DNA of 64,000 nucleotides, from positions 1 to 64,000 of the forward strand of contig JASCOF010000005.1 of the NCBI GenBank assembly GCA_029960065.1, read 5' to 3'. Position numbers and translations under genes: made by a program. This stretch comes from Flavobacteriaceae bacterium PS02336. Its GTDB lineage: Bacteria > Bacteroidota > Bacteroidia > Flavobacteriales > Flavobacteriaceae. Positions 19,224 to 48,500 of this stretch are shown one piece after another; the first letter of the stretch is position 1; every line of letters begins with the position of its first letter. The notes under the pieces were generated by a model. The model worked only from the letters and a program-made list of their open reading frames with translations, searched no databases and was not told the DNA's origin.

Positions 19224-19247
19224 TGTTATCGATTTAATTAGAGAATT

Positions 19248-20051
19248 ATGACAACAGATTTTATAGGCTATTTATTGGCCGTTTTAGTAGGTGTTTCATT
19301 AGGACTTATAGGTAGCGGAGGTTCCATACTTACCGTTCCTATTTTGGTGTATGTGATGGGTGTTAATCCTATTCTGGCAACAGCCTATTCCTTATTCGTT
19401 GTAGGGGCAACATCTTTGGTCGGTGGCGTTCAAAATGCCCTACATAAAAAAGTAGATTTTAAAACCGTATTTATTTTTGGTATTCCATCTATTGTTGCAG
19501 TGTATTTAACCAGAGCATATCTGATGCCTCTGATTCCTGATGTTATTTTCACTGTTGGAAGTTTTGAATTTACCAAACCTATCGCCTTAATGGTGTTGTT
19601 TGCCATCGTAATGATATTTGCTTCGATATCCATGATACGTCCTTGTCCGCATTGTAAAGATGCAGATGACGGCGAAATAAAATACAACTATCCAATGATT
19701 CTGTTGGAAGGAGCTTTGGTTGGAACTTTAACCGGATTAGTCGGTGCAGGTGGTGGATTTTTAATTATTCCGGCATTGGTTTTATTAGCAAAAATGCCTA
19801 TGAAATTAGCCGTAGGAACTTCCTTATTTATAATTGCTGCGAAATCACTTTTAGGGTTTACCGGAGATTTACAAGGTAGTGAAACCATAGACTGGACTTT
19901 GTTATCCACTTTTACCGGATTATCCGTTGTCGGGATTTTTATCGGAATCTTCCTGTCAAAAAAAATAGAAGGAAATAAACTCAAATCCGCATTCGGTTGG
20001 TTTGTACTGGTTATGGGAATCTATATCCTTATCAAAGAATTATTCTTATAA
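19248..20051 (+). CDS. TSUP (TauE/SafE) family sulfur anion exporter
   Basis: This 267-residue protein has about eight hydrophobic segments in two repeats. The repeats begin with the TSUP signatures GLIGSGGSILTVPIL (about residues 19-33) and GLVGAGGGFLIIPAL (about 162-176). Members export or import sulfite, thiosulfate or organosulfonates. Between the repeats is a small cytoplasmic loop with RPCPHCKDADD, a CxxC that may bind metal. It lies between cydAB and two persulfide dioxygenase-like genes, so it probably removes the sulfite they make; this is inference from context. Confidence 0.88.
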   Translation: MTTDFIGYLLAVLVGVSLGLIGSGGSILTVPILVYVMGVNPILATAYSLFVVGATSLVGGVQNALHKKVDFKTVFIFGIPSIVAVYLTRAYLMPLIPDVIFTVGSFEFTKPIALMVLFAIVMIFASISMIRPCPHCKDADDGEIKYNYPMILLEGALVGTLTGLVGAGGGFLIIPALVLLAKMPMKLAVGTSLFIIAAKSLLGFTGDLQGSETIDWTLLSTFTGLSVVGIFIGIFLSKKIEGNKLKSAFGWFVLVMGIYILIKELFL

Positions 20052-20061
20052 AAAACAGTCT

Positions 20062-20106
20062 TGTAACCTATGTTACTGTACGGGTTATAAACAGGTTGTA
20101 GTTTTG
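20062..20106 (+). promoter_or_regulatory. Crp/Fnr-type operator and -7 box of the MBL-MBL-peroxiredoxin operon
   Basis: TGTAAC-CTAT-GTTACT (20062-20077) lies 37 bp upstream of TAGTTTTG (20099-20106). The palindrome begins 10 bases after the TSUP stop codon. The core CTAT spacer is identical to that of the site at 14458, which precedes the other MBL/rhodanese gene. Confidence 0.84.
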
Positions 20107-20143
20107 TATCATTAATATTTAAACAATTAAAAAATTATAAAAA

Positions 20144-21562: not shown

Positions 21563-21589
21563 TTAATAACATTTAAAAATTTAAAAAAT

Positions 21590-22972: not shown

Positions 22973-23002
22973 AAGTTATCAACTCATAAAAAATTAAATA
23001 AA

Positions 23003-23650
23003 ATGGAACAAGTAATCAATACAATGCCAAGAATTGGCGATATGGCACCCGATTTTGAAGCGGTGACTACTACAGGAGCAATCAAATTTTCAGAATATAA
23101 TAAAGGAAGCTGGGTTATCTTATTCTCACACCCTGCGGATTTCACACCAGTTTGTACAACAGAAATGACAGGATTTGCTAACGAGAGCGATTTCTTTGGA
23201 AAACACAATACCAAACTAATGGGCTTGAGCATCGACAGTATTCACAGTCATATTGCCTGGGTAAATGCGGTTGATGAAAAAACAGGTGTATTGTTCAACT
23301 TCCCGATTATTGCAGATTTGGATATGAAAGTAGCCAAATTGTACGGAATGTTGCAACCAGGAGAAAGCGAAACTGCGGCTGTCCGTGCCGTATTCATCAT
23401 GGATCCGGCAGGAAAAATCCGTTTGATTATGTATTACCCTTTAAACGTAGGGCGTAATATGGACGAGATCAAACGATCATTGTTAGCACTTCAGACATCT
23501 GATGAATACAAAGTTGCTATGCCTTTGAACTGGCAGCCTGGCGATAAAGTGATTGTAGGAGCACCAAAAACATTGGAAGGATTGAAAGAGCGTAAAGCCG
23601 ATACGACTTTAGAACAGGTGGATTGGTACCTTGCTAAAAAATCAATTTAA
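23003..23650 (+). CDS. Peroxiredoxin, 1-Cys (Prx6) type
   Basis: This 215-residue protein has the peroxidatic motif HPADFTPVCTTE with Cys51 and the Prx6-type C-terminal extension (from about 165, LNWQPGDKVIVGAPKT). It reduces peroxides using its single active cysteine, with the resolving thiol supplied by another molecule. In the operon with two persulfide dioxygenase-like genes it may remove peroxide or deal with persulfide by-products. It is not preceded by its own recognisable promoter. Confidence 0.92.
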   Translation: MEQVINTMPRIGDMAPDFEAVTTTGAIKFSEYNKGSWVILFSHPADFTPVCTTEMTGFANESDFFGKHNTKLMGLSIDSIHSHIAWVNAVDEKTGVLFNFPIIADLDMKVAKLYGMLQPGESETAAVRAVFIMDPAGKIRLIMYYPLNVGRNMDEIKRSLLALQTSDEYKVAMPLNWQPGDKVIVGAPKTLEGLKERKADTTLEQVDWYLAKKSI

Positions 23651-23721
23651 TCATTAAGAATAAGGAGATTGGCTTTACGCAAATTTAGGGTCAGTCTTCT
23701 TATCATAAATATTTACATCAT

Positions 23722-24036
23722 ATGTTAGAGTTATTAGACAAACTTTCGAAAGATAAGTTTTTAGATAAAGATTTTCTTTTTTTGGTTGATGTACGCACTC
23801 CTGAAGAATTTAATTCGGGAAGTGTTGACGGTGCCATAAACATACCATTAAGTGTATTGGAACAGGAGCTTTCACAATTTAAAAACAAAGAAAACATTAT
23901 CGTTTTCTGCCGAAGCGGAGCAAGAAGCGGAAATGCACAAATAATCCTTCAGCAACACGGATTTGAAAATGTAGTGAACGGTGGTCCGTGGCAAAATGTA
24001 CAGCAAGCCTTGGATGAAATATTACAGAAAAAGTAA
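23722..24036 (+). CDS. Single-domain rhodanese
   Basis: This 104-residue cytoplasmic protein has a single rhodanese domain: VDVRTPEEFNSGSV, then active loop CRSGARSG with Cys63, and a closing GGPWQN segment. It transfers sulfane sulfur to thiol or cyanide acceptors. It is 71 bases behind the peroxiredoxin gene and 43 before a membrane-anchored paralogue. Confidence 0.9.
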   Translation: MLELLDKLSKDKFLDKDFLFLVDVRTPEEFNSGSVDGAINIPLSVLEQELSQFKNKENIIVFCRSGARSGNAQIILQQHGFENVVNGGPWQNVQQALDEILQKK

Positions 24037-24079
24037 ATGACACATCACTTTTTCACTCAACGGTATAAATCAAAAAAAG

Positions 24080-24451
24080 ATGCAAAAACAAAGTTTCAAA
24101 TTCATTCTCATTATTATAATCGGAGTAGTTATGTTAGGAATTTTTAAAAATCTTTTCGGTCAGAAAGACAATACACAGCTAAAAGAAGTTATCAAAGAAG
24201 GTGCTTTCCTGGTTGATGTTCGCACGCCTTCTGAATTTGCATCCGGAAGCGTAAAAGAAGCAGTAAACATTCCATTGGATAAAGTTTCGGGGCAATTATC
24301 TAAATTCAAGGGTAAAAAACACATCGTTGTATTTTGCAGAAGTGGCAACCGTAGCGGACAGGCAAAGAGTATTTTAGAAAAAAACGGTTTTAATAACGTT
24401 GTCAATGGCGGAACTTGGAACAATGTACAGAAAGTAATTACAGAGAATTAA
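24080..24451 (+). CDS. Membrane-anchored rhodanese
   Basis: This 123-residue protein starts with one hydrophobic helix (about residues 8-26) followed by a rhodanese domain with VDVRTPSEFASGSV and active loop CRSGNRSG (Cys86). The anchor would place the domain outside the inner membrane, or leave it as a tethered form. It is about as long as the 23722 rhodanese plus an anchor, so the two look like a cytoplasmic and an envelope copy. A DUF2892 gene follows after 10 bases. Confidence 0.88.
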   Translation: MQKQSFKFILIIIIGVVMLGIFKNLFGQKDNTQLKEVIKEGAFLVDVRTPSEFASGSVKEAVNIPLDKVSGQLSKFKGKKHIVVFCRSGNRSGQAKSILEKNGFNNVVNGGTWNNVQKVITEN

Positions 24452-24461
24452 GAACAGACAA

Positions 24462-24704
24462 ATGAAAAACTATTTAAGCAACTGGAATTTTATGCGGATT
24501 ATCCGTCTGGTTCTGGGAATTGTGATCATCGTTCAAGGCATTCAGGCACAGCAATGGATGCTTGTTGTCTTAGGTGGATTATTTACACTAATGCCGCTGT
24601 TTAATATTGGTTGTTGTAGTACGACCGGCTGTGATACCACTTATAGAGCAAGGAAAACTATCGAAAAAGAAGATATTACCTATGAAGAAGTAAAATCGAA
24701 ATAG
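24462..24704 (+). CDS. DUF2892 family membrane protein (copy 1)
   Basis: This 80-residue protein has the DUF2892 pattern: NWNFMRIIRLVLGI at the start, two membrane helices (about 13-27 and 31-46), then a cysteine-rich cytosolic or periplasmic part (NIGCCSTTGC). In other bacteria DUF2892 is fused to rhodanese domains (as in YgaP) and helps transport or bind sulfane sulfur. The neighbours are rhodaneses and a thioredoxin. A paralogue is at 29719. Confidence 0.85.
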   Translation: MKNYLSNWNFMRIIRLVLGIVIIVQGIQAQQWMLVVLGGLFTLMPLFNIGCCSTTGCDTTYRARKTIEKEDITYEEVKSK

Positions 24705-24940
24705 TGAGGAATACATTTACAAGAAAAAAACTGTTGATTTTAATTGATATACCATTGGGTGCCATAGCTGGATTTCTGTATTGGAAGTTCATTGGCTGTA
24801 ATACAGCTACCTGTGCCATCACATCAAGCTCTATTAACAGTGCTTTATATGAGACGGTTATTGGTGGCTTGGCATTTTCAATGTTCAAAAAAGATAAAAA
24901 AGATAAAAAAGAAAAGAATGAAATTTCAGGAAATTATTAA
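24704..24940 (+). CDS. DUF6132 family small membrane protein (copy 1)
   Basis: This 78-residue protein is read from a GTG at 24704 that overlaps the DUF2892 stop by one base. It has two hydrophobic segments around a [16 protein letters not shown] stretch and a very Lys-rich C-terminus. Function is unknown. Its last 23 bases overlap the thioredoxin start, so the three genes are translationally coupled. A paralogue is at 29936, in the same order relative to DUF2892. Confidence 0.78.
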
Positions 24941-25211
24941 ACAAGACAAACCCGTGTTGGTCGATTTTTTTGCTACATGGTGCGGACCTTGCAAAATGCA
25001 GGCTCCCATATTGGAAGAACTAAAACAACGTATTGGTGATACAGCTACTATTATTAAAATAGATGTAGATCAAAACCAACAGATTGCTGCACAATATCAA
25101 ATACGTAGTGTTCCGACATTGGCTATCTTTAAAAATGGAGAAGTCAAATGGAGGCAGTCAGGAGTTTTTCCTGCGAGCGAATTGGAAAGATTAATAAAAG
25201 AAAATCTATAA
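24918..25211 (+). CDS. Thioredoxin (copy 1)
   Basis: The ATG at 24918 gives a 97-residue thioredoxin with the canonical WCGPC active site (Cys22, Cys25) and cis-Pro in RSVPTL. It starts inside the DUF6132 gene (23-base overlap). Its sequence is close to the thioredoxin at 27996; most positions match. A rho-independent terminator follows at 25215. Reading the same frame from an upstream start adds an unlikely N-terminus. Confidence 0.92.
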
Positions 25212-28350: not shown

Positions 28351-29058
28351 ATGAAAATAGAAATCTGGAGCGATGTTATCTGTCCGTTCTGTTACATCGG
28401 AAAACGGAATTTTGAAAAAGCCCTCGAAGAGTTTGCAGATAAAGATCATGTAGAAGTAGTCTGGAAGAGTTTCCAGTTAGACCCATCCTTGCCCGAAACA
28501 GCATCTGAAAGCTATGAGGAATACCTGACAAAGCGAAAAGGTATGCCTTCTGAACAGGTCAAGGGAATGCTCACCAACGTAACGGAAATGGCTAAACAGG
28601 CCGGTCTGGAATATCATCTGGATAGATCCGTTATCGTCAATTCGCAAAAAGCCCATCTTCTGCTACAATTTGCAAAGTCCAAAGGGCTGGGTAACGAAGC
28701 CGAGGAACGTCTGTTCCGTGGCTTTTTTACAGAGGGTGCAGACATAGCGGATTTAGACACCTTGGTTCGTCTTGGCAAAGAAATCGGATTGGACGAAAAC
28801 GAAACAAAACTCATATTTGACGACGAAAAATATAGATATGAGATGACGCAGGATATTCAGGAAGCGCAGAGTTTAGGTGTCAGCGGAGTACCTTTCTTCG
28901 TATTTGACAGGAAATACGCTGTTTCGGGGGCACAGCCATCAGAAGCATTTGCGGATACCCTGTCGAAATCCTATGCGGAATGGAGAAAGTCCAATCCCGA
29001 AATAAAATTGGAAGTTACACAGGGCAGCAGCTGTACAATCGACGGGAAGTGTGAATAA
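28351..29058 (+). CDS. DsbA family oxidoreductase, FrnE type
   Basis: This 235-residue protein has a thioredoxin fold interrupted by a helical domain, with active CPFC at Cys11-Cys14 right after the first strand and cis-Pro in GVSGVPFFVF. No signal peptide is present, so it is a cytoplasmic member (FrnE group) rather than a periplasmic disulfide former. It also has a C-terminal CTIDGKC pair. In a block with OsmC and thioredoxin it probably repairs oxidised thiols. Confidence 0.88.
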   Translation: MKIEIWSDVICPFCYIGKRNFEKALEEFADKDHVEVVWKSFQLDPSLPETASESYEEYLTKRKGMPSEQVKGMLTNVTEMAKQAGLEYHLDRSVIVNSQKAHLLLQFAKSKGLGNEAEERLFRGFFTEGADIADLDTLVRLGKEIGLDENETKLIFDDEKYRYEMTQDIQEAQSLGVSGVPFFVFDRKYAVSGAQPSEAFADTLSKSYAEWRKSNPEIKLEVTQGSSCTIDGKCE

Positions 29059-29114
29059 GTGTATTTCAACGACCCGGCGTTAATACAAAATGGCTCTTCC
29101 TAAAAAAATAAAAT

Positions 29115-29681
29115 ATGTGGGATATGTACCGAATGTTCGTAATACCCGAAGGTAAGTGGGGCGAAAAAGGGGCTGCAACGATGGTCGGCTCTGGAGATGC
29201 TATGGCCCGTCAGGCTGTGGAGCTCTTGGAGCTAGGGCAGAATGACCGCGTTCTTGAAATTGGGTTTGGTCCGGGAATAGGCCTGGAAACTCTGGCAAAA
29301 AAAGTAACGCATGGATCAGTTGTCGGTATCGACCCTTCGGAACTCATGCACCGCCTTGCCGGTGAGCGTAATGAAATAAGTATAGAAACGGGTCTGGTAA
29401 AGCTCTTAAAAGGGACGGTTGATCATCTGCCCTTTGAGGACAGTTATTTCAACGGTGCCCTCGCAATGGACAACATGCATTTTTGGAATGACCCTCTCAA
29501 AGCACTAAAAGATCTGCACAGGGTACTTATGCCGGGTGCAAAGCTGGTGTCTTCCTTCACACCTTTTTCCGGAGGAAGCAGGCGTGGCTGGAAAGAACTG
29601 TTTACAGCAGCAGGATTTACGGACTTTGCTATATTTGAAAATGAGTCAGGCATCCGTTTAGTAGGCACAGCAGCCAAATAA
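29115..29681 (+). CDS. Class I SAM-dependent methyltransferase
   Basis: This 188-residue protein has the SAM motif VLEIGFGPGIGLETLA (about residues 44-59) and GIDPSELM at the end of strand 2, followed by a substrate region without features I recognise. Small methyltransferases of this type near thiol-stress genes are common in Bacteroidota; the substrate is unknown. It lies 56 bases behind FrnE and 37 before DUF2892. Confidence 0.83.
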   Translation: MWDMYRMFVIPEGKWGEKGAATMVGSGDAMARQAVELLELGQNDRVLEIGFGPGIGLETLAKKVTHGSVVGIDPSELMHRLAGERNEISIETGLVKLLKGTVDHLPFEDSYFNGALAMDNMHFWNDPLKALKDLHRVLMPGAKLVSSFTPFSGGSRRGWKELFTAAGFTDFAIFENESGIRLVGTAAK

Positions 29682-29718
29682 GATCAAAGCCTTCAAAAAT
29701 TAATCAAACTGTAGAATA

Positions 29719-29952
29719 ATGAAAAACTATTTAAGAAATTGGAATTTTATGCGGGTATTTAGGCTGGCATTAGGTGTTATTGTCATGGTACAGGGTATTA
29801 TGGCAAATGAATGGCTGATGGCAGGACTGGGCGCTCTGTTTGCCCTGATGCCCCTGATGAACGTAGGATGCTGCGGAGTAAACGGATGCAATACGCCCAT
29901 TGCGAAAAGTGGAACAAAATCAGAAGAAATAACGTATGAAGAAGTTCGCTAA
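29719..29952 (+). CDS. DUF2892 family membrane protein (copy 2)
   Basis: This 77-residue protein is clearly paralogous to the one at 24462: MKNYLxNWNFMR at the start, the same two helices and a similar NVGCCGVNGC stretch. It overlaps the next DUF6132 gene by 17 bases, whereas copy 1 overlaps by one. The pair and the thioredoxin debris downstream repeat the gene order of 24462-25211. Confidence 0.83.
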   Translation: MKNYLRNWNFMRVFRLALGVIVMVQGIMANEWLMAGLGALFALMPLMNVGCCGVNGCNTPIAKSGTKSEEITYEEVR

Positions 29953-30163
29953 AAAACATCTGCTCACCATGGCAGGTGTATTTATCGGGGCCATTGCCGG
30001 TTATTTATATTGGAAATTCATCGGGTGTACTTCCGGTACTTGTGCCATTACATCCAACCCACTAAACAGTACTATATATGGTGCGGTTATGGGGGGACTT
30101 TTATTTTCAATATTTAAAAAAGATAAAAAACAATTTGATATTTCAGGGAATAACAAACAGTGA
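29936..30163 (+). CDS. DUF6132 family small membrane protein (copy 2)
   Basis: This 75-residue protein is a paralogue of the DUF6132 gene at 24704 (both have [14 protein letters not shown]-like or [10 protein letters not shown] cores, TCAITS, and end in a Lys-rich tail and ISGN). The end overlaps the first fragment of a decayed thioredoxin in another frame, just as copy 1 overlaps an intact thioredoxin. Confidence 0.78.
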   Translation: MKKFAKKHLLTMAGVFIGAIAGYLYWKFIGCTSGTCAITSNPLNSTIYGAVMGGLLFSIFKKDKKQFDISGNNKQ

Positions 30164-30215
30164 CAAACCTGTACCTATACTGTTAAATTTCTCTGCGGTA
30201 CAGTTGTATTCCTAA
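30138..30215 (+). pseudogene. N-terminal fragment of a decayed thioredoxin gene
   Basis: In the frame that begins FQGITNSDKPVPILLNFSA the DNA keeps the pattern of the thioredoxin N-terminus ([17 protein letters not shown] in copy 1), but the ATG has become ATA, the CGPC region is unrecognisable and the frame stops at 30215. It sits at the same place relative to the DUF6132 gene as the intact thioredoxin at 24918. The C-terminal part lies on the other side of the ytxJ gene at 30803-30867. Confidence 0.75.
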
Positions 30216-30318
30216 AAAAATTAAGTAATGCATAGGTAATTATGCCAGCTTCATTAAGATGTAAATAGATAAAAATTTACAAAAAGCAGCCCCAATAAAA
30301 TTCTTAAATTATATACGT

Positions 30319-30705
30319 ATGAGCTTTTTTAAACGACTCTTTGGCAGTGATGAACCATCGAACAGAAAAGATTTTGATTGGGTTCCCTTAAACGATCTGC
30401 AACAACTACAAGAAATCATTACGGATTCTTATCAAAAGACAATAATAATTTTTAAACATAGTACCCGTTGCAGTATCAGCCGTTTTGTGTTAAATTCCTT
30501 TGAAAACGAATTTGATTATCCGAAAGAAAAAATAGAAGCATATTATCTGGATCTGATTCATTTCAGAGAGATTTCCAATGAAATAGCCAGAAGATTTAAC
30601 GTTCAACATCAATCTCCCCAAATCATGGTCATCAAAAACGGGAAAGTGGTTTTTTCAACTTCCCACGAGAATATCGATGCCGGTTCTCTAGTTAGATTTC
30701 TTTAA
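30319..30705 (+). CDS. ytxJ: Bacillithiol system redox-active protein YtxJ
   Basis: This 128-residue protein has a thioredoxin-like fold with a monothiol site: FKHSTRCSISRFVL, with one Cys (Cys51) in place of the CxxC. The family name and pattern are those of YtxJ (BrxC) bacilliredoxin, which removes bacillithiol from S-bacillithiolated proteins. Its presence suggests that the host makes bacillithiol. It lies between the two fragments of a decayed thioredoxin gene, which suggests that it was inserted or that flanking DNA was rearranged. Confidence 0.86.
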   Translation: MSFFKRLFGSDEPSNRKDFDWVPLNDLQQLQEIITDSYQKTIIIFKHSTRCSISRFVLNSFENEFDYPKEKIEAYYLDLIHFREISNEIARRFNVQHQSPQIMVIKNGKVVFSTSHENIDAGSLVRFL

Positions 30706-30925: not shown

Positions 30926-31468
30926 TTATTTGATAAATGTCTCCAGTACCTCTTTAAATAGGTCTGTACCTGCTTTTTCCAGCCATTCGAATACCAGCAT
31001 ATCCCTTGTTATGACCACAGCACCGTTCTGCTGCATCCGTTCCAGTCCACGCGTTCTGTCATTTTCAGTTCTGGAACCAACACCCATATCTACAATAAAT
31101 ACTTCATAACCCGCATCCAGCAGATCCAATACGGTCTGCAGAACGCAGATATGCGTTTCCGTACCGACAACGATTACCTGCTTACGCTCTTCGGCGAAAT
31201 GTTTTGTCAAGTTACCTTCCCGGACGGCCGAAAAATAGGTCTTGGAAACAATATCCTTTTCACTGACCTTCGATCGTAAAATTTCGGGTGTTGCCCCAAT
31301 TTTTTCAGGGAAGTGTTCTGTGAGTAAAACCGGAATACCTATTTTTTTAGCAAGGTCAACTGACCAGATTGCGGTTTCCAGCACTTCTTTCCCGTTGATG
31401 ATCTTTGGAAACAGCCGTTCCTGAATATCGATAACAAGTAATGTTGAATTTTCCTTTATGATTTTCAT
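30926..31468 (-). CDS. Isochorismatase-fold cysteine hydrolase
   Basis: This 180-residue protein has the catalytic triad Asp14 (LVIDIQERLF), Lys76 (IVSKTYFSA) and Cys108 (ETHICVLQTVLDLL). The family includes isochorismatases, nicotinamidases and carbamoyl hydrolases; no metal-binding histidine set of a nicotinamidase is evident. It follows the luciferase-like gene by 65 bases on the same strand and shares its AraC-box promoter at 32695. Confidence 0.87.
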   Translation of the reverse strand: MKIIKENSTLLVIDIQERLFPKIINGKEVLETAIWSVDLAKKIGIPVLLTEHFPEKIGATPEILRSKVSEKDIVSKTYFSAVREGNLTKHFAEERKQVIVVGTETHICVLQTVLDLLDAGYEVFIVDMGVGSRTENDRTRGLERMQQNGAVVITRDMLVFEWLEKAGTDLFKEVLETFIK

Positions 31469-31533: not shown

Positions 31534-32616
31534 CTACAGCTCCGGCATCTGATAGGCATCGGCAATCAATTTTGCTGAATGTACCATTTTCTCGGGCGAA
31601 TGTCCGAGGTTTACCAGCATCAGCTCATCGGCACCCGATACCTGTTGCCCCCTGTTCAACCCGTCAGCAACCATCTGTCCTGTGCCATAGATCATTTTAG
31701 ACCGCCAGCTTTCCATCAGGTACCTGTCCTGTTGCGTATATGGAAATGAGGCCAGTTCTGAAGGAGAAGGCATTACGTAAGATTGTCCTTTCATCATCCG
31801 CATCATGCTGTGTGCATAACTTTCGGTTTCCAACAAGGCTTCTTCTTGGGTGTCGGCAGCAAATACGGCAAAGCAAGCTAAAGTGTGTGGCTTATCAAGG
31901 ATTTCCGATGGTTGGAAATTATCCCTATAGACCGCAAATGCCCCTTCCAGATTTTCGGGAGAAAGCTGTGCGGCAAAAGCAAAGGGCAGTCCAAGTTTCC
32001 CGGCTATTTTTGCAGAATGGCCAGAAGATCCCAACAGCCATACAGCAGGCCTTTCCATGGAACGTTCAATACCGTTCTGGGCATCCTGTCCGGGTCCGGG
32101 CACCGCCCAGACCTTATTCTTATATGGGTGTCCTTCAGGGAAATCGTTATCGAGAAAATGGAACAGCTCTTCAAGCTGCTGCATGTAGTTCTCCGCTCCG
32201 GGGCTTCCCATACCACGGATAGCCGTTGCAGTAAAACCATCCGTTCCGGGTGCACGGCCTATACCAAGGTCGATCCGTCCGGGAGCCATTGCCTCCAACA
32301 TACCAAACTGTTCTGCAATTACCAGGGGCGGAAAGTTTGGGAGCATCATACCCCCGGCTCCCAAACGGAGGTGCTTTGTCTCGCCGACCAGACGGGCGAG
32401 CATAACTGCCGGTGATGAGGTAGAAACGGCAGGCATCGAGTGATGTTCCGCAACCCAGTAACGGGCAAATCCCCTGCGGTCGGCAAGTTTTGCCATTTCG
32501 ATACTTTTTTCAATTCCCTCTATCGCGGAAAACCCTTTTCCGGTCGTTGCCCAATCCAGTATGGATAGCGGAACGGGGGCATTTCCCTGTTTTTTTATTG
32601 TACTGATATTGTTCAT
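31534..32616 (-). CDS. LLM class flavin-dependent oxidoreductase
   Basis: This 360-residue protein is a luciferase-like monooxygenase with the TIM-barrel pattern VPLSILDWATTGKGF, RYWVAEHHSMP, LRLGAGGMMLPNFPPLVIAEQFGMLEAMAPGRIDLGIGRAPG. It binds reduced flavin and oxidises an unknown substrate. It leads a minus-strand operon with the isochorismatase-fold gene. The promoter at 32695-32759 has the same AraC-box geometry as those of the sirtuin pair and of the hydrolase at 36364. Confidence 0.9.
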   Translation of the reverse strand: MNNISTIKKQGNAPVPLSILDWATTGKGFSAIEGIEKSIEMAKLADRRGFARYWVAEHHSMPAVSTSSPAVMLARLVGETKHLRLGAGGMMLPNFPPLVIAEQFGMLEAMAPGRIDLGIGRAPGTDGFTATAIRGMGSPGAENYMQQLEELFHFLDNDFPEGHPYKNKVWAVPGPGQDAQNGIERSMERPAVWLLGSSGHSAKIAGKLGLPFAFAAQLSPENLEGAFAVYRDNFQPSEILDKPHTLACFAVFAADTQEEALLETESYAHSMMRMMKGQSYVMPSPSELASFPYTQQDRYLMESWRSKMIYGTGQMVADGLNRGQQVSGADELMLVNLGHSPEKMVHSAKLIADAYQMPEL

Positions 32617-32694: not shown

Positions 32695-32759
32695 CAAAGG
32701 TAGAAAGCATATCCTGTTCAGTGGATACCAAAGAAGGTTCTAATACTACCATTTTGATA
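32695..32759 (-). promoter_or_regulatory. AraC-type direct-repeat operator and -7 box, LLM/isochorismatase operon
   Basis: On the minus strand TATCAAAATGGTAG (32759-32746) is followed by TTTGGTAT; the GGTAG and GGTAT half-sites start at 32750 and 32729, 21 bp apart, and TACCTTTG (TAnnTTTG) begins 27 bp after the second at 32702. The same geometry is seen at 33768 and 36262. It lies in the region shared with the divergent AraC gene. Confidence 0.85.
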
Positions 32760-32838
32760 AATATATCCCCTATAAATACCTTTATTTATTTCCTGTTTTT
32801 GTAAATTGCAGTTCATTTTTATAATTCGGAAAAAGACT

Positions 32839-33729
32839 ATGGAAACTTTAAAATTTCATAAAACGGATTGCGGGGTCGACTTCCTTCTGAACGTTATCCA
32901 TCTGGAAAGTGCAAACGGAACATACCTTAAAAACGTGCCTTTCAATACCGATTTTTTCGAGATTGTATTCTTTAAAAAAGCACATGGCCGCCTTATACTG
33001 AACCATCAACAGATCGAGCTTACGGATAACAGCCTTATTTTTATTTCTCCGCATCAGAAGCGTCAATGGCATTTTGAGGAAGAAAAGGAACAGCTCTTTA
33101 CGATACTTCTTTTTCAGGAAGATTTTCTCAATGAATTTTTCTCCGATAAACTTTTTGCCTACAGGCTGTTATATTTCTACCAGCTTCATTATCCATTGAA
33201 AATGGCGGTGGATACCGAGCTTATCCAGGGCTACTGTAACCTCCTGACGGAAATAAAGTCGGAACTGGTACATACCAAGCCGGACAGCATACACATCGTA
33301 CGTTCGCTGCTCTATTATATCCTTCAGAAACTCAACAGGGAGTATGCAACAAGGAACCATCTGGATTTGGAAAGGGACAACAGCAACCACTATGCTTTTC
33401 AGTTCAAGCACCTGATCGAAATACACATCAAAAAAAAGCAGCGTGTTGAGGACTATGCGGAAATGCTCGGCATCAGCAGGGTTTCCCTCAATACAGCTGT
33501 CAAAGAACAGTTTAATGTGACTGCTACGCATCTGCTCAAACAACGGCTGCTGCTGGAGATCAAGAACTATCTCATCCATTCAAAGCTCACCGTCAGTGAG
33601 ATTGCCTATGAACTAAGCTTTTCAGAACCTAATCACCTGATGCGTTTTTTCAAAACACAGACAGGTATGACCACGGGTGAGTTTCTCCATGACAACCAGT
33701 CCGGAAGTACTTTGCACGCGCTGGTGTAA
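32839..33729 (+). CDS. AraC family transcriptional regulator
   Basis: The ATG at 32839 gives 296 residues; an earlier TTG in frame is unlikely. The N-terminal part looks like a cupin-type sensor, and the C-terminal part has the two AraC helix-turn-helix motifs: RVEDYAEMLGISRVSLNTAVKEQF and LTVSEIAYELSFSEPNHLMRFFKTQTGMT. It lies between three promoters that share a direct-repeat box, so it is the best candidate regulator of all of them. Its ligand is unknown. Confidence 0.9.
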   Translation: METLKFHKTDCGVDFLLNVIHLESANGTYLKNVPFNTDFFEIVFFKKAHGRLILNHQQIELTDNSLIFISPHQKRQWHFEEEKEQLFTILLFQEDFLNEFFSDKLFAYRLLYFYQLHYPLKMAVDTELIQGYCNLLTEIKSELVHTKPDSIHIVRSLLYYILQKLNREYATRNHLDLERDNSNHYAFQFKHLIEIHIKKKQRVEDYAEMLGISRVSLNTAVKEQFNVTATHLLKQRLLLEIKNYLIHSKLTVSEIAYELSFSEPNHLMRFFKTQTGMTTGEFLHDNQSGSTLHALV

Positions 33730-33767
33730 GTCCTGGAAGCCACTTCCTGACCAGTATCATTAATTTT

Positions 33768-33832
33768 TATCAAAATGGTAGTTATGTCATCGGTTTTGGT
33801 AGCCTTTCCATAATCTTCTGAAACTAATTTTG
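33768..33832 (+). promoter_or_regulatory. AraC-type direct-repeat operator and -7 box, sirtuin operon
   Basis: TATCAAAATGGTAG at 33768-33781 and TTTTGGTAGCC follow each other; the GGTAG half-sites begin at 33777 and 33798 (21 bp apart) and TAATTTTG starts 27 bp after the second, at 33825. The leader to the ATG at 33859 is about 20 bases. Confidence 0.87.
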
Positions 33833-33858: not shown

Positions 33859-34761
33859 ATGGTTACAGAGGAACAGATAGATTTCCTTAATAAAAAAATT
33901 AAGGATGCCGATGCGATTGTTGTCGGCGGAGCTTCGGGAATGTCCGCGGCTTCAGGTTTCAAGTTCTATTATCAATGTGATGATGTATTTCGCATGATTG
34001 CGGGTTCACTGGAGGAAAAATATGGTTTTCACAATTTCTTTGACGGACTGTACGACCGTCAGCATACTTTGGGAGAACATTGGGCAATGCTCATCAGGGT
34101 ATCCAAATATATTTTTGACTGTGAAACAGGCGAAACCTACAGGGAACTGGCCGAGCTGCTCGATGGCAGGAACTATTATATAGCCACGACCAATCAAGAT
34201 GCACAGTTTTTTCGCGTATTCGATGAAGACAGGATTACCCGCATACAGGGCGACTGGCGTTATTGGCAGTGCAAAAGAAAGTGCCACGACGAAATCTACT
34301 ATAACAAAGAGCAGGTTTATGAGCTGCATGAAAAAATAGAAAATGATGCCCTTCCCGATGACCTGATTCCACGCTGTCCCAAATGCGGCAGGGAAATGGA
34401 TCCCTGGATACGTTCGCGTACTTTTCTGCAAGGCAGTTATTATCAAAAGGAAATGGATCGTTATCATGATTTTCTACGCACATTTTCCAGACGCAATACC
34501 CTCTTTCTGGAACTTGGAGTGGGCATGATGACCCCGATGTTCATCAAGGAACCCTTTATGAACATGGTCTACCAGTGGCCGCGGTCATTTTATGCGACGC
34601 TGAATCCGCAGCATGCCATTGTGCCGAAGGAAATAGCTGATAAGAGCATTGCCATCAGTGACGATATTGCCATTACTTTGAAACAGTTATTGGGCAGATC
34701 CACTGAAGGAATGATAAAGCATGCCCCTAATGAAGTATTTACACCATCAAGAATTTACTAA
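33859..34761 (+). CDS. Atypical Sir2 family protein (SirTM-like), first copy
   Basis: This 300-residue protein has the sirtuin NAD-binding start VVGGASGMSAASGF (a variant of GAGxSxxSGI), TTNQDA with Asn112, and a zinc ribbon (Cys138, Cys142, Cys173, Cys176). Where ordinary sirtuins have the catalytic His (HG), this one has Gln130 in IQGDWRYWQC. The same His-to-Gln change is known for macrodomain-linked SirTM sirtuins, which ADP-ribosylate proteins rather than deacylate them. No macrodomain or lipoyl-carrier gene is next to it; instead a second sirtuin and an HD protein follow. The stop overlaps the next start by one base. Confidence 0.85.
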   Translation: MVTEEQIDFLNKKIKDADAIVVGGASGMSAASGFKFYYQCDDVFRMIAGSLEEKYGFHNFFDGLYDRQHTLGEHWAMLIRVSKYIFDCETGETYRELAELLDGRNYYIATTNQDAQFFRVFDEDRITRIQGDWRYWQCKRKCHDEIYYNKEQVYELHEKIENDALPDDLIPRCPKCGREMDPWIRSRTFLQGSYYQKEMDRYHDFLRTFSRRNTLFLELGVGMMTPMFIKEPFMNMVYQWPRSFYATLNPQHAIVPKEIADKSIAISDDIAITLKQLLGRSTEGMIKHAPNEVFTPSRIY

Positions 34762-35645
34762 TGGAGAGCATAGAAAGAACTTACAGGGAGATATGCGAAG
34801 CAGATAAGGTGCTTATAGGGGCAAGCAACGGGCTCTCCATATCCGGCGGTATCCATATTTTTGCGGACAACGCAGATTTTAGGGAGCATTTTTCGTACTA
34901 TCGCAATCGGCTTGGGATCCCCAACATTATAAACGGCTGCTTTTTTCCTTACCGTACAGCAGAAGAAAGATGGGGTTTTTACAGCAGTATGTACAATTAT
35001 TTTACCGTGGTCAGACCAGTGAGTGAGGTTATGCAGAACCTGACATCCCTGATCCGAAAAAAGGATTATTTTGTTGTTACATCCAATATAGACGCCCATT
35101 TTATCCACGCAGGGTTTGACAGGGACAGACTCTTTGAAATTGAGGGCAACTGCTGCGACATGCAGTGCGGCAAAGGTTGCCATGAAACTGTTTATCCAGC
35201 TGAAGAACTGCTCATAAAGATGTTCGCACAGAAGGAAAATGGAAAGGTGCCAAAAGACCTTGTACCCAATTGTCCCCAATGCGGCGGACCGATGGTATTG
35301 CATATTGAGACCGACCGGAATTTTGTAAAAGACCACAGATGGAACGACAGTGCATCAGCTTACAGGGATTTTTGTCAAGTTCCTTCGGACAAAAAAATTG
35401 TCCTGCTGGAACTGGGTGTGGGGATGCGTAACAGGCTCATCAAACAGCCGTTCATGGACTTTACCTATAAACACCCGAATGCAACCTATGTAACGTTCAA
35501 CAAGGGCGATATTTATATCCCAAGTGAGATCGCTGGACAGTCCGTTGCAATGGACGGGAATATTGCGAAATTTCTGAATGTCCTTGCAGGGAAGAATAAT
35601 GACAGGAACAAAGAAGATGGGAATAACGCTAAAACAAATTCCTGA
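34761..35645 (+). CDS. Atypical Sir2 family protein, second copy
   Basis: This 294-residue protein is a divergent relative of the one before it. It has LIGASNGLSISGGIHIF in the NAD-binding start, TSNIDA with Asn109, and zinc ligands Cys136, Cys140, Cys171 and Cys174. The catalytic His position is Glu128 (EIEGNCCDMQC), which is not a residue known to me in active sirtuins. The two copies overlap by one base (TAATG) and may form a heterodimer with one active and one altered subunit; that is inference. The HD-domain gene follows with no gap. Confidence 0.82.
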   Translation: MESIERTYREICEADKVLIGASNGLSISGGIHIFADNADFREHFSYYRNRLGIPNIINGCFFPYRTAEERWGFYSSMYNYFTVVRPVSEVMQNLTSLIRKKDYFVVTSNIDAHFIHAGFDRDRLFEIEGNCCDMQCGKGCHETVYPAEELLIKMFAQKENGKVPKDLVPNCPQCGGPMVLHIETDRNFVKDHRWNDSASAYRDFCQVPSDKKIVLLELGVGMRNRLIKQPFMDFTYKHPNATYVTFNKGDIYIPSEIAGQSVAMDGNIAKFLNVLAGKNNDRNKEDGNNAKTNS

Positions 35646-36221
35646 ATGAACACATCGACAACTATTCTTGATCTGCCGGAAAATATTTCTATAGCGGATA
35701 AATACAGGTACTGGTATGATTTTATGGAGAATGAAGTGAGCTTTAACCGTGAAGACAGCCCGCTCCATGCCAGACCGCACTGCCGCAGGGTTCTTTTCCT
35801 TGCACTGAAACTGAGCGAAAAAATGGGATTAACGGAAAGAGAGAAAGATATACTGTGTCTCGCTGCCGTTTTTCACGATTCCAGACGGGAGGATGAAGGA
35901 CTTGATAAGGGCCACGGGCTAAGGGCGGCCGAGTATTACGGGCATTATTGTACGGTCAACAATTTACCTTTTGTTCCGGAAGTACACCTCATCTGTGCCT
36001 ACCATGACCATGATGACAGTGAAGGTATTGCAGACATAACGCATTTAATAGAAAATGCCGAAGGGTGTATAAGGTTATACCGTGTTTTTAAAGATGCTGA
36101 TGCACTGGACCGTTTCCGGCTTGGCCCAAACGGACTTGACGTTCGGTTCTTACGTAACGCTCAAGCCCTGGAGCTGGTAGAAACGGCAAAGGAAATGCTG
36201 CCAAGATCAGAGTTCAGATAA
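35646..36221 (+). CDS. HD domain phosphohydrolase-like protein
   Basis: This 191-residue protein has the HD-superfamily metal motif: H45 in HARPHCRRVL, H77-D78 in FHDSRR, H120 in CAYHDHDD, and the distal Asp in FKDADALDRFRLG. Such enzymes hydrolyse phosphate esters, often of nucleotides. It starts immediately after the second sirtuin stop and is in the same operon. In this setting it could act on an ADP-ribose-type or nucleotide product, but nothing in the sequence fixes the substrate. Confidence 0.85.
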   Translation: MNTSTTILDLPENISIADKYRYWYDFMENEVSFNREDSPLHARPHCRRVLFLALKLSEKMGLTEREKDILCLAAVFHDSRREDEGLDKGHGLRAAEYYGHYCTVNNLPFVPEVHLICAYHDHDDSEGIADITHLIENAEGCIRLYRVFKDADALDRFRLGPNGLDVRFLRNAQALELVETAKEMLPRSEFR

Positions 36222-36261
36222 CGGAAAAGTACGTGATCATCCCAATAATTCATTTAATATT

Positions 36262-36326
36262 TATCAAAATGGTAGTTATTGGGCAAGTTTTGGTAGCCGG
36301 TTCGGTTATTTAATTGGCGAACTTTG
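36262..36326 (+). promoter_or_regulatory. AraC-type direct-repeat operator and -7 box, nicotinamidase-like gene
   Basis: TATCAAAATGGTAG at 36262-36275 and TTTTGGTAGCC repeat the box seen at 33768; the GGTAG half-sites begin at 36271 and 36292 (21 bp apart) and GAACTTTG starts 27 bp after the second, at 36319. The -7 box differs from TAnnTTTG at its first base. Confidence 0.85.
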
Positions 36327-36363: not shown

Positions 36364-36912
36364 ATGAGTAAAAAAGCATTACTGGTTATAGATATCCAGA
36401 ACGACTATTTCAAAAACGGAGCATGGGAACTTGTAGGATCTGAGGAGGCAAGTCTTCAGGCCCGTAAAATGATCGATCATTTTAGAGCAAACGATCTTCC
36501 TATCGCACATATCCAGCATTTTGCAACAGACGGGAATATTCCATTTTTCCATCCTGGAACAGCAGGGGCAGATATTCACGAAAATGTAAGACCTGCCGAA
36601 GGAGAGAAAGTGGTAAAAAAATATTACCCAAACAGCTTCAGGGAAACCGATCTATTGGAATACCTGAAATCCAACGGCGTTACTGAAGTGGTCATAACAG
36701 GAATGATGTCGCATATGTGCGTTGATGCAACCACAAGAGCGGCAAAAGACCTTGGGTTTGAATGTACGGTTATCAGTGATGCCTGTGCTTCAAGAGATCA
36801 AGAGCTTCAGGGAAAAGTGGTTAAAGCAGAGGATGTACATACTGCGTTCATTGCAGCCTTGACATTCTTCTATGCAAATGTAACAACGGCAGATGAATAC
36901 ATCAATGCCTAA
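36364..36912 (+). CDS. Nicotinamidase-like cysteine hydrolase (isochorismatase fold)
   Basis: This 182-residue protein has a triad Asp10 (LVIDIQNDYF), Lys86 (VVKKYYPNSF) and Cys119 (GMMSHMCVDATTRAAKDLG). Family members hydrolyse nicotinamide or related amides. If it is a nicotinamidase, it would clear the nicotinamide released by the sirtuins next door, which inhibits them; the shared promoter supports this idea but the substrate is not proven. A strong terminator follows. Confidence 0.85.
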   Translation: MSKKALLVIDIQNDYFKNGAWELVGSEEASLQARKMIDHFRANDLPIAHIQHFATDGNIPFFHPGTAGADIHENVRPAEGEKVVKKYYPNSFRETDLLEYLKSNGVTEVVITGMMSHMCVDATTRAAKDLGFECTVISDACASRDQELQGKVVKAEDVHTAFIAALTFFYANVTTADEYINA

Positions 36913-44613: not shown

Positions 44614-45444
44614 ATGGAAAAATGCTATAGAGAATGTATTCGAAACGTCGAGGAAAAAATTATTGAGTTGACAATGGAAATGGAAAATCCAATTTTGCTG
44701 GCGCAGGAGATTATTGAACTTCTGATTAATAACATGGCAGATTTGAAAAAGTTTGTGGCAGAACGAGGCTTTAATAGTACAGAAGAGGAAATATATTTCT
44801 TTAAGCATTTAAAGCCTGTCATTCTTTCAAAACTTATTTATCACAATGCTGTTTACAAAATAGAAACAAAAAAGCCTTATGGCAATGGGAAAGCCATTAA
44901 AAAATATATCGATAATGAACTTTCAAAGTTGAAAAGGTATTTTGATAACAATCTCGATTTTTATAAATATTACAGAACTAACAGCACCTATTTGGACCAC
45001 AAATATTTTGTACGTGGAAAACATGATATTAAATTGAGCCTTGACACGTTTTATTTCGAAGCAGATCACAATTTTACAACTTCACACGACTATAAAGTAG
45101 CCAAAATTATTGCAAATGACCTGATACAGGTATATCTTGAAGATCAGCTAAATACCCGAACCCCTAAAAAATCATTTGATGATAATCCTTTAAAATGGAC
45201 TGCCAATAAAACTGCATTAACCGAATTAATTTATGCTCTGTATTCACAAAATGTTTTTAATAACGGAAATGCCGACATAAAAGAAATAGCAAAAACATTT
45301 GAAAGCATCTTTAATGTTGATCTAGGAGATTTCTATCATACTTTTATGGAACTTAAATCCCGAAAAATAAACCGTACAAAATTCATTGATAGCTTACGCG
45401 ATGCTTTAATCAGAAAAATGGATGAACAGGATGAAAAGGTATAA
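44614..45444 (+). CDS. rteC: RteC domain protein, mobile element excision regulator
   Basis: This 276-residue protein is an RteC homologue, with the helical body (PYGNGKAIKKYIDNELSKLKR and LDHKYFVRGKHDIKL) and a C-terminal winged helix. In CTnDOT RteC activates excision genes in response to tetracycline signalling through RteA and RteB; here neither partner is visible in the window. It is a strong marker that this region belongs to an integrative/conjugative element. It lies alone between two terminators. Confidence 0.9.
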   Translation: MEKCYRECIRNVEEKIIELTMEMENPILLAQEIIELLINNMADLKKFVAERGFNSTEEEIYFFKHLKPVILSKLIYHNAVYKIETKKPYGNGKAIKKYIDNELSKLKRYFDNNLDFYKYYRTNSTYLDHKYFVRGKHDIKLSLDTFYFEADHNFTTSHDYKVAKIIANDLIQVYLEDQLNTRTPKKSFDDNPLKWTANKTALTELIYALYSQNVFNNGNADIKEIAKTFESIFNVDLGDFYHTFMELKSRKINRTKFIDSLRDALIRKMDEQDEKV

Positions 45445-45457
45445 TACCAACTAAACA

Positions 45458-45499
45458 AAAAAGTAAACGTTGATTTATGATAGTCTACGTTTACTTTTT
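45458..45499. terminator. Bidirectional terminator between rteC and the methylase-helicase gene
   Basis: AAAAAGTAAACGT (45458-45470) pairs perfectly with ACGTTTACTTTTT (45487-45499); flanking A and T runs make it work in both directions. Confidence 0.9.
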
Positions 45500-45520
45500 A
45501 CATTGTAAGTCAGTTCCGTT

Positions 45521-48500
45521 TCACAACACACCCCTTGGTATGTGGACGCCTTTTGTTCTTACAATGGCTTCCGAAATATTTTGGTTTTGTTCCTTTTTCT
45601 CAGTCTTTTCAGCAGGCTCTTCTTTCGTCTCAGGAGCAATTGACAACATAATTTTTCTTTCTACACCAGCCAATTCCGTTTTGAGTTCGCTTAGTCGGGT
45701 TTCTTTGTTCCAAGTACCGTTTACGATTTCCTGAAGTACAGGCAGGTCTTTTTTGAGTTCCACATTTTTCTTTTGTTCCTGTTCTATATATCCGGGCAGT
45801 TTTTCCAATGCCTTTAGAAAATTCATCGCTGCCGTTTCAGGATCTTTCGCCATGATACCGTTGTTGTACGTGTATTTGATATTGCCTTCACCTTGTATTA
45901 AAAAACGGTTTACACGAATATCCACGCCCTCTTTTTCAGAAACTTCGGTTTTGACCAATAACTGAAATCCATACAAACTTCCTATTTCCTGATAATCACC
46001 ACCTGTGCGGGCTTTATCCGCTATCTGGTTGAGTTTTGCACCAATCTGTTTGACATCGGCATTTGCCGACAAACCCTCCAACTGAACAGGATTGGCAATA
46101 CTGTCGTCCGAATGTTTTTGTATTCGCTTTTCTAAATTATTCCAGTCAAGGCTCATCCGTTCCAATCGGGATTTGGAACCTTCCAGCATAGCCTTAACAT
46201 CTTCTAACTTATGTTTAGAACTGTATTTAGAACGATTGAATGCTTGTTTCTCGCTTTCCAGACCCGCAATCTGTTTTTCCAATTTTGCTTTTTCAAGCAA
46301 ATCGGTATTTCCCGAAAGTATTGCCACGTATTCAGAGAAATTCATGCCGGTTTTTTCGTCCATTGCACCTTCATCAATGGTACGTTTGCCCATGCTGTTA
46401 CTTTTCAGCTGACCAATGAAAACCTGCTTGTTGTACAAGGTATTGAATTTATAGCTGTCTAATGATTTCTCAACCGCATAGATAAAAATATCTATTTTGT
46501 TGTCTGCAAAGAACTTAGCAATATCATTCCCTTTTCGGATAGCCCGCCCATCCCTTTGGGCAAGGTCTGACGGTCGCCATGGTATATCGAGGTGATGTAC
46601 GGCAACCGCTCGTTTCTGTGCATTTACACCTGTACCCAACATTTCTGTAGAACCAAACAGTACCCTTATCTTTCCCTCATTGACATCGCTGATGAATTGC
46701 TTACGCTGCTTTTCGTTTTTGGCTTCCTGTATAAAACGAACTTCGTTTGCAGGGATACCGTGGTCTTCAACAAGTTTGCGTTTAATTTCCGAATATACAT
46801 TCCATTCGCCTGGCTTGTAGGTTCCCAGATCGGAGAATATAAATTGTGTACCTTTCTGTGCATTGAACTTAGTGTAGTATTTGGCAATGTTTGCCGCACA
46901 ATGGGAAGCTTTATTGTCAGGGTGATCTTCGTATTTACGGTTTATCATCCGCATATCCAAAGACATCTTACGAGCGTAATCCGTAGCGATGAGCATCTTT
47001 GCCTTTTCCTCACTTTGAGATAATGGCGGTCGTCCCAACAGTTCAGCATTGCCCGTTTTGGCAAATTCCATCAATTTTTTGATAAATACTTCCTGCTCTG
47101 GTGTTGGAGGGATATTGTATAGTATCTCATTCTTTTCCGGACGATCTATGCCTATATCTTTGGCGGTTCGGTAATCCGTTATCTCGGAATAGAATTGGGC
47201 AAGTTCTGGCACTTTGATAAAGAAGCGGAAACGCTCTTTTGATACAATATTGTTAGCCACCGAAAATTCATAATCGGTAGTCTTGCGGGCATAGATCGCT
47301 GCCCAGGCATCAAAGCAATTGATACCTTGTTTTTCCAATGCCTGTGGTCGCAAGTATTTAAAAAGCAGATACAGTTCCGTCAGCGAATTGCTAATCGTAG
47401 TACCCGATAGAAAAGTTGCTCCCAAATCCTTTCCGGTGCGTTCCTGAATGGTACGGATGGCAAACAGCAGGTTCATTGCCCTTTGGCTTCCTGCCATATT
47501 GCCCAATCCGGCAACACGCTCATGGCGGGTATTAAACATCAGATTTTTGAAACGATGGCTTTCATCGACCAACAAGTGATCGATGCCCATCATTTTAAAA
47601 TCAACTACATCATCCTTTCGGTTTTCAATATCGTGTTCCAGTGTTTTCAACCGGACTTCAAGGTTCTGTTTGCGTATCTGTACGCCTTTGAGCATACCTC
47701 TTGAAATTTCATTGCCCTGTGCTTCCAGAGCAGCAAGGTTATCCTCAACGTTCTGTAGCTCACCTTCCAATATCTCTTTCTGCATTTCAGGTGATTGGGG
47801 TATCATCCCGAATTGATCATGCGTCAATATCACACAATCCCAATCGTTATTTTTGATGTCGCCAAAAATCCGTTGTCTTTTCTGTGGAGTAAAATCTTCC
47901 TTTCCGGGATATAGGATTTTAGCGTGTGGATAAGCTTTACGATAGGTTTCCGCTATTTCGTGGACATTGGCTTTCAGCCCTAATATCATCGGTTTATGTA
48001 CCATGCCCAACCTCTTCATTTCCTGAGCAGCCGTACACATTATCAAGGTTTTGCCAGCACCTACTTCATGGTCGCAAATCGCTCCTCCATTCAGCTTTAT
48101 CATCCAAACGGCATCCTTCTGGCTTGAATATAGGTCTTCAATACCCAGACCTTTTCTGTCCAGTCCGGGAAACTCCTGATGGCTTCCGTCATATTGCGGA
48201 CGTACAAAGCAATTGAACGTGTCATTGTACTGATCAGTTAGCCGTTTTTTAAACTCATCGTTCTGGGCATGAAGCCAATCAGTAAAAGCGGTACGGATTT
48301 CATCAATTTTGGTATTCGCCATCTGTATGGCTTCCATATCCCTTACCTTGACTTCCTTGTCATCTATTGTAACCTTTTTGGTAATATCAGGCGTGGTATT
48401 GACCAGAGCGTGCTTCAGTAAAGCAATTCCATCATAGGTACGGCTTTGCGATTTGATGGCGTACTTATCCCAGATGTGTACGTTCTTGCTGTTGCAATTG

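Follow-up and report, generated by a model that had tools for sequence, protein, structure and literature searches.

Two adjacent genes for atypical sirtuins, SirTM1 and SirTM2, followed by a gene for an HD-domain protein, were found in Flavobacteriaceae bacterium PS02336 on contig JASCOF010000005.1 (positions 1 to 64,000; this whole stretch of 64,000 nucleotides is called the window). Comparison with related loci showed that SirTM2 is the constant partner in this module, and the HD gene is an accessory gene. The reading preferred here, for which the chances are about even, is a stress-inducible ADP-ribosylation module built on the sirtuin pair, in which SirTM1 would be the writer, SirTM2 its obligate partner, and the HD protein would break the product down. 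The analysis was computational only, and every reaction and every regulatory step is inferred. The three open reading frames (ORFs), with lengths in amino acids (aa), are:

33859-34761, + strand: SirTM1 ORF, 300 aa
34761-35645, + strand: SirTM2 ORF, 294 aa
35646-36221, + strand: HD-domain protein ORF, 191 aa

The end of SirTM1 and the start of SirTM2 have one base in common (TAATG), and the HD start codon stands directly after the SirTM2 stop; an earlier note on this DNA had described this one-base overlap and zero gap, and both were confirmed from the ORFs. In the PDB, the S. pyogenes SirTM (SpySirTM) structure 5a3a was the best match of both sirtuins (E 1.4e-41 for SirTM1 and 3.7e-37 for SirTM2). 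The alignment places Gln130 of SirTM1 and Glu128 of SirTM2 at the position of SpySirTM Gln137, and both proteins keep an Asn (N112 in SirTM1 and N109 in SirTM2), the glycines of the nicotinamide adenine dinucleotide (NAD) pocket, and the Cys pairs of the zinc ribbon. The earlier description of tandem atypical sirtuins, with the catalytic His gone and the NAD pocket and zinc ribbon kept, is therefore borne out by the alignment to SpySirTM.

SirTM1 keeps the equivalents of SpySirTM N118, Q137 and R192 as N112, Q130 and R185, and each of the three is required for SpySirTM activity according to the available part of the original report (PMC4518038). Arg at the R185 position occurs in 96% of 74 SirTM1 sequences. 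The class-M change of HG to QG is found in SirTM1 (Gln130) and not in SirTM2 (Glu128); moreover, SirTM1 has both the N118 and the R192 equivalents, whereas SirTM2 has only N109. The class-M motif GVGx[NT]TP is not complete in SirTM1, which reads GVGMMTP; TP is kept, and Met stands at the [NT] place, as it does in 88% of the 74 sequences. One SirTM1 paralogue (L053) has Leu at the Gln place. These residues lead to SirTM1 as a predicted ADP-ribosyltransferase.

SirTM2 has N at the T position of GVGx[NT]TP, and has lost both TP and the R192 equivalent. It also has fixed residues of its own: the A, S, N and L of GASNGL, S108, H113 and N224 were present in 56/56 sequences, and the same residue comparison gave E126 in 98% and N109 in at least 90%. 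D114 is replaced by Glu in 27 of 58 Glu-type sequences, and the SirTM2 of Phocaeicola coprophilus (L083; 227 aa) is without the zinc ribbon. Because of the residues that are fixed in SirTM2 itself, its pocket looks like an altered active site rather than a decayed one. A phylogenetic tree was reconstructed by a quick method from 66 of 153 sequences after near-copy removal, and two of its end branches, both within the single SirTMs, are long. SirTM1, SirTM2 and the single SirTMs each fell on one side of a branch (Shimodaira-Hasegawa-like approximate likelihood ratio test, SH-aLRT, 99, 100 and 92), and the Glu-type rows formed a single clade with no Gln-type row within it. Class S2 was set by the Glu, and class S1 consists of the Gln-type rows adjoining S2; the 100% at the catalytic column is therefore so by construction, and the independent evidence is the one clade and the other fixed residues. 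On Lactobacillaceae plasmids (L006, L007 and L008), a SirTM1 without the Cys pairs adjoins a SirTM2 with a cupin-like C-terminal part, which in L006 matches Cupin_5 below the cut-off.

Recurrence of the pair was examined in two samples. For the first, genome contigs were scanned with a SirTM2 alignment, which gave 125 relatives; counts were taken from the best 80 and so lean to closer relatives. This sample holds near-copies, including two Flavobacteriaceae bacterium contig records with the window's cluster at 100% (L034 and L035) and a pair of loci that look alike (L050 and L051). SirTM2 was called by profile at 58 of the 80 loci, with the Glu directly read in 54 and four called by profile only (L056, L061, L063 and L089), and SirTM1 was adjacent in 56 of the 58. 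The second sample comprised 299 genomes of one family; matches with E no higher than 1e-20 were present in 149, and a clear score gap set apart 19 that have SirTM2. SirTM1 stood beside SirTM2 in 19/19 of these, and the next 11 loci had no SirTM1; a text motif read the Glu in 13 of the 19, and the six without a motif match rest on the profile score. The two samples overlap in at least two genomes (G691 and G694). On Mesobacillus and Paenibacillus plasmids, SirTM1, SirTM2 and HD are followed by genes for nicotinate phosphoribosyltransferase (NAPRT) and an isochorismatase-family protein. A gene for an MnmA-like protein (tRNA 2-thiouridine synthase) often lies close downstream of the module in Bacillales, at L004:13371-14486 and 12 other loci; the L004 copy was family-scanned, and the other 12 were assigned by blastp cluster. 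In the window's own lineage SirTM1 is rare: a SirTM1 search of 299 genomes of the window's own family gave one match, the window's genome, and a phylum sample of 395 genomes gave two, the window's own and a weak (E 1.6e-6) His-type one.

The pair also differs from other SirTM loci in its neighbours. The SirTM name derives from linkage to a macrodomain (PMC4518038, in its available part), and this class-M linkage is missing from the pair. A macrodomain was found in the fetched stretch at 0/58 SirTM2 loci and at 12/22 loci without SirTM2 (Fisher 1.1e-8; loci not independent). In the second sample, one lay within about 1.5 kb at 0/19 pair loci and at 7/11 single-SirTM loci (Fisher 1.6e-4; loci likewise not independent). 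The window's genome gave 0 matches to the macrodomain family PF01661 (control: matches in 8 of 14 genomes), and one GcvH match lies elsewhere in it. The departure from the known SirTM operon that had been claimed from the letters alone was thus upheld, with no macrodomain beside the sirtuins or in the genome and no lipoyl carrier in the operon.

The HD protein matches Pfam HD PF01966 (23.8 bits against a cut-off of 22), and the same match reaches E 0.01 or better for 15 of 22 family members. It carries H41, H45, H77-D78, H90, H120-D121 and KDADALDRFR; H45, H77-D78, H120-D121 and D152 are invariant in the 22 members, as in HD superfamily phosphohydrolases. Accessory genes were counted at the 46 pair loci where the sequence extends 4 kb or more downstream. 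HD was present at 26 of these and not at 20, and was found at 0/22 loci without SirTM2; among Bacillales-type loci with the same downstream length, it was present at 17 of 19. The co-occurrence proposed in the earlier note as a check therefore holds for the sirtuin pair, and only partly for the trio. A search of 21 genomes (22 loci submitted) detected HD in 11, always and solely at the SirTM locus; in the other 10, where the pair is without HD, it turned up no member of this HD family elsewhere either. A scan of 397 genomes of one order gave an HD match at E 1e-5 in 14; four of these are strong and lie beside the pair, and the remaining 10 are weak, with E no better than 1e-13. Because HD is missing at these 20 loci and was not found elsewhere in the 10 genomes, an obligate HD eraser is rejected on co-occurrence, and the earlier suggestion that HD could take the reversal role is not supported for HD as a general replacement of the macrodomain.

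The structure model of the HD protein is confident (predicted local distance difference test, pLDDT, 91). Among its best VIA-align rows were SdeD (Z 13.0; root mean square deviation, rmsd, 3.0; 161 residues), DupA (12.6) and SdeA (12.1), whose phosphodiesterase (PDE) domains act on ADP-ribosylated ubiquitin according to the available part of PMC6941232. At one locus, a single ORF on a metagenome-assembled genome (MAG) contig (L040:6967-8088) joins HD to an isochorismatase-family domain. In Phocaeicola coprophilus, L083:4374-5622 covers the SirTM2 that has no zinc ribbon as well as an HD gene that is divided between two frames. Nine distant HD relatives, comprising seven plasmid and two viral-contig proteins, have an extra N-terminal domain holding YRG, SWT and ExE:

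HD fusions: L127, L128, L129, L131, L132, L133, L134 (plasmid); L136, L137 (viral contigs)

These residues are presumably an ADP-ribosyltransferase-like signature, confirmed by no database, and the fused domain is possibly an undescribed ADP-ribosyltransferase family. The seven plasmid fusions all match phrog_4776, whose function is unknown. The HD plasmid search returned 12 records, two of them in the SirTM module; eight of the other 10 were fetched and gave the seven fusions and one HD alone (Peptoclostridium, L130), and the remaining two, a further record from P. polymyxa and a partial match in Nonomuraea, fell outside the fetched set.

The neighbouring genes and operator-like sites of the module in the window are:

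30926-31468, - strand: second isochorismatase-family gene, downstream of the LLM gene
31534-32616, - strand: MsnO8-family luciferase-like monooxygenase (LLM; TIGR03558), divergent from the module
32723-32760, - strand: third operator-like copy, less exact, upstream of the divergent LLM gene
32839-33729, + strand: AraC-family regulator upstream of SirTM1 (ATG at 32839; start in the ORF list TTG 32806)
33767-33804, + strand: operator-like direct repeat with a 21-bp period (AAAATGGTAG ... TTTTGGTAGCC), upstream of SirTM1
36261-36298, + strand: second operator-like copy, upstream of the 36364 isochorismatase-family gene
36364-36912, + strand: isochorismatase-family hydrolase, downstream of the HD gene

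The operator-like repeat consists of GGTAG and GGTAG or GGTAT, 21 bp apart. With its first 19 bases and up to three mismatches, three sites were found against 0.03 expected. Across the whole genome, exact copies number three and lie in the window without exception; two more differ at one base and another at two bases, and a control with the reversed pattern matched once. The one-mismatch copies adjoin a gene for a MATE-type pump and an isochorismatase-family gene that has an AraC-like gene next to it; the pump and the AraC-like gene were named by eye. These AraC-like, isochorismatase-family and MATE-type pump genes with the 21-bp repeat lie about 80 kb from the SirTM cluster in the same genome (L125:6235-9489), and perhaps belong to a wider regulon, to judge by the repeat. 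Since the 36364 gene has its own operator-like copy, a single shared promoter is not shown, and the statement of the earlier note that this gene is under the same promoter as the sirtuins was not supported. In Phocaeicola, the repeat also precedes SirTM1.

Among 55 loci with enough upstream sequence, the regulators were, in Bacillota, divergent RrpA-like (19) or Rrf2-like (18), and otherwise AraC (2, L034 and L035), with none of these types at 16. One member per Bacillota cluster was scanned, and both scored below the curated cut-offs (RrpA 139.9 bits against 185; Rrf2 68.8 against 73.3). The RrpA-like regulators are taken here to be HxlR-type. All members of both regulator clusters have at least one Cys, which is no proof of redox sensing. 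Within the window, thiol and sulfur redox genes are dense at 14583-25211 and 28351-30705, including three metallo-beta-lactamase/rhodanese fusions, a TauE-type exporter, peroxiredoxin, thioredoxin, rhodanese, a DsbA-like protein, the monothiol bacilliredoxin BrxC, and cytochrome bd. The window's LLM is 31% identical to its Aerococcus counterpart in the canonical SirTM operon. The stretches 44614-50953 and 62262-63875 encode an RteC-type regulator, a DNA methylase/helicase protein of 1810 aa, and a topoisomerase. Such a set presumably resembles Bacteroidota conjugative elements, and the cluster may be mobile cargo.

Genes of NAD salvage accompany the pair in part of the loci. NAPRT was found at 18 of the 46 pair loci, a PncA-type gene at 10, NadE at 4, and a window-type isochorismatase at 17. 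HD and NAPRT occurred together at 17, HD only at 9, NAPRT only at 1 and neither at 19 (p 3.8e-5; loci not independent). At 17 of the 43 loci that have 4 kb or more on each side, none of HD, NAPRT, PncA-type and NadE was present. PncA-PncB-NadE genes stand beside the pair in several Bacillota, and PncB and a PncA-like gene also in Phocaeicola; no salvage gene was recognised beside the pair in the window. The 36364 gene scored 53.4 bits with the nicotinamidase model against a cut-off of 174, a weak test since the cut-off was passed by one of 14 control genomes. At the metal motif it reads IQH, where related loci have DAH or DWH, so that D-x-H is missing. A nicotinamidase role for this gene is thus unsupported, and its product is probably not a metal-dependent nicotinamidase as far as these residues tell.

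In the proposed mechanism, SirTM1 would use NAD+ to ADP-ribosylate an acceptor with release of nicotinamide, as its kept catalytic residues suggest. SirTM2 would be the obligate partner, because its linkage is constant, macrodomains are excluded from the loci, and its active site is conserved but altered; it might be the second subunit of a heteromer, or an enzyme that removes ADP-ribose. As the constant member of the module is SirTM2 and not HD, it is SirTM2 that would be the natural stand-in for the macrodomain or else the obligate co-subunit. The HD protein would act as an accessory phosphodiesterase and break the ADP-ribose product at its phosphate link. PncA-like, PncB and NadE proteins would, in many Bacillota, return nicotinamide to NAD+. 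In the window's genome, the AraC-type regulator would act on the 21-bp repeats and switch on SirTM1-SirTM2-HD, the LLM and the isochorismatase-family hydrolases. More specifically, SirTM2 might be the eraser, a Gln-to-Glu sirtuin that hydrolyses the ADP-ribosyl bond made by SirTM1, with HD cutting the released ADP-ribose; this version is put forward tentatively and is somewhat unlikely. If it is true, writer and eraser would both be sirtuins, and SirTM2 would stand in place of the Zn-macrodomain.

Several results weigh against the stress-inducible module with SirTM2 as obligate partner. SirTM2 was found without an adjacent SirTM1 at two loci, of which L044 (with 7.7 kb of sequence upstream) is a real exception and L060 is cut at a contig end. 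A lipoyl carrier (GcvH-L) and a lipoyl ligase (LplA) were found at 0/58 SirTM2 loci with single-sequence profiles, and the extended SirTM operon was thus not recognised there. The absence of macrodomains covers the pair loci and, beyond them, only the whole genome of the window. For the HD protein, 2pq7 (12.9), which is a plain HD hydrolase, and a polyphosphatase (12.4) fell in the same VIA-align range, which is a tie with the Legionella rows, and helical models reach Z 12-13 by chance. Foldseek with the HD model listed other HD folds at the top, none under E 1e-3, with no Legionella protein among the best 50 rows, and a profile search against PDB sequences, with E allowed up to 10, gave only two other HD-type proteins and no Legionella one. 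Searches of Pfam, PDB profile and PHROG did not confirm the ADP-ribosyltransferase identity of the HD-fused domain, and its predicted fold is unreliable (pLDDT 33); other HD relatives stand alone in viral contigs. The NAPRTase family PF04095 had 0 matches in the window's genome (control: 6 of 14 genomes), and a complete NAD salvage arm there was rejected on this ground. No nicotinamidase over the cut-off was found in that genome either, by a cut-off that one of 14 controls passed, so the Bacillota-type salvage arm is not shown in it. The removal of nicotinamide that the earlier note had assigned to the nicotinamidase-like gene fits the Bacillota and Phocaeicola loci with adjoining PncB, PncA-like and NadE genes, and is doubtful for the 36364 gene.

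Other explanations give different roles to the same proteins. SirTM2 might be catalytically dead and serve SirTM1 only as a structural or regulatory subunit, since it lacks Q137, the equivalent of R192 and the pyrophosphate-motif TP, and tolerates Glu at D114 and, in Phocaeicola, loss of the zinc ribbon; however, its pocket is fixed in a new form (S108, H113, N224 and the GASNGL residues without exception, and N109 nearly so), and a dead subunit is considered rather doubtful. The HD protein might instead be the eraser that replaces the macrodomain. This would agree with a genome without macrodomain match, with the frequent HD genes of the Bacillales-type loci, and with the resemblance of the modelled fold to PDE domains acting on ubiquitin in its ADP-ribosylated and phosphoribosylated forms; the 20 pair loci without HD, and the 10 searched genomes in which none was found, make it unlikely.

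The target of the sirtuins might also be a small molecule. SirTM1 and SirTM2 could ADP-ribosylate and so inactivate a drug, a quinone or another electrophile, with HD and the hydrolases degrading the product. The operator-like repeat beside the MATE-type pump gene in the same genome, the LLM and isochorismatase-family genes in the predicted regulon, and the below-cut-off resemblance of one Bacillota regulator to RrpA would suit this idea, as the Campylobacter RrpA responds to quinones (PMC8765430, in its available part). However, the regulon is read from operator-like copies only, and the closest characterised relative modifies a protein according to the accessible text of PMC4518038; modification of a small molecule is thus improbable. 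NAD-using sirtuins are known in defence, and some copies of the module are on plasmids, so an anti-phage module that depletes NAD was also considered. The best PADLOC hit had E 0.0044 (AbiEi, 14.4 bits; five proteins scanned), no SirTM2 relative was found in viral contigs, and the HD query from L013 had no match in the phage collection. Moreover, the NAD-recycling neighbours at many loci are the opposite of abortive NAD loss. A defence function is therefore very unlikely, and the likeness to NAD-using defence modules seen in the earlier note was rejected.

The stress-inducible sirtuin-pair module would have some consequences for the study of bacterial ADP-ribosylation. The pair clade has neither a macrodomain nor GcvH-L beside it, which departs from the standard SirTM picture and suggests a different layout for reversible ADP-ribosylation. 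It offers a second defined system in which SirTM-like targets and the removal of the mark can be sought, and HD proteins of this family may process ADP-ribose as enzymes that belong to none of the known groups. No described system with this gene set was found in the open-licence literature, judged by titles and the opening lines of abstracts, in agreement with the earlier note, and no description of a Glu-type SirTM partner was found there. A 2012 work of de Souza and Aravind reportedly deals with NAD-using pathways, and a prior mention of the gene set in it is possible. A term search of the main texts of PMC4518038 and PMC11490716, as far as these were available, gave no mention of tandem sirtuins or an HD domain.

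The closest known relatives are the SirTM/Zn-macrodomain systems (Rack 2015, PMC4518038; Ariza 2024, PMC11490716), of which GcvH-L was stated in 2024 to be the only known SirTM target (PMC11490716); these comparisons draw on the available parts of both papers. The similarities include the QG of SirTM1, its N118 and R192 equivalents, SpySirTM as the best PDB match, and an LLM nearby; a redox context as in those systems is possible. In contrast, there are two sirtuins here, the second of Glu type, and Met stands in the GVGx[NT]TP motif of SirTM1. Furthermore, the adjacent macrodomain, GcvH-L and LplA are absent, and HD and, in many Bacillota, NAD-salvage genes are found instead. The PncA-PncB-NadE salvage genes stand beside the pair elsewhere; they are accessory, and none was recognised beside the pair in the window. 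The Legionella SidE-family PDE and DupA/DupB (PMC6941232 and PMC10143409, in the parts available) may share an HD-like helical fold with the HD protein, are among its best VIA-align rows, and act on an ADP-ribosylated protein, with H277/E340/H407 as their catalytic set; however, they have no sequence match to it at E up to 10, and their VIA-align scores are tied with those of other HD folds. FAM118A/B (PMC12700824, in its available part) are a pair of atypical sirtuin paralogues as well; these interact with each other and process NAD. They belong to the SIR2_2 subfamily, are vertebrate proteins and are not SirTMs, and the likeness to the SirTM1-SirTM2 pair is an analogy only.

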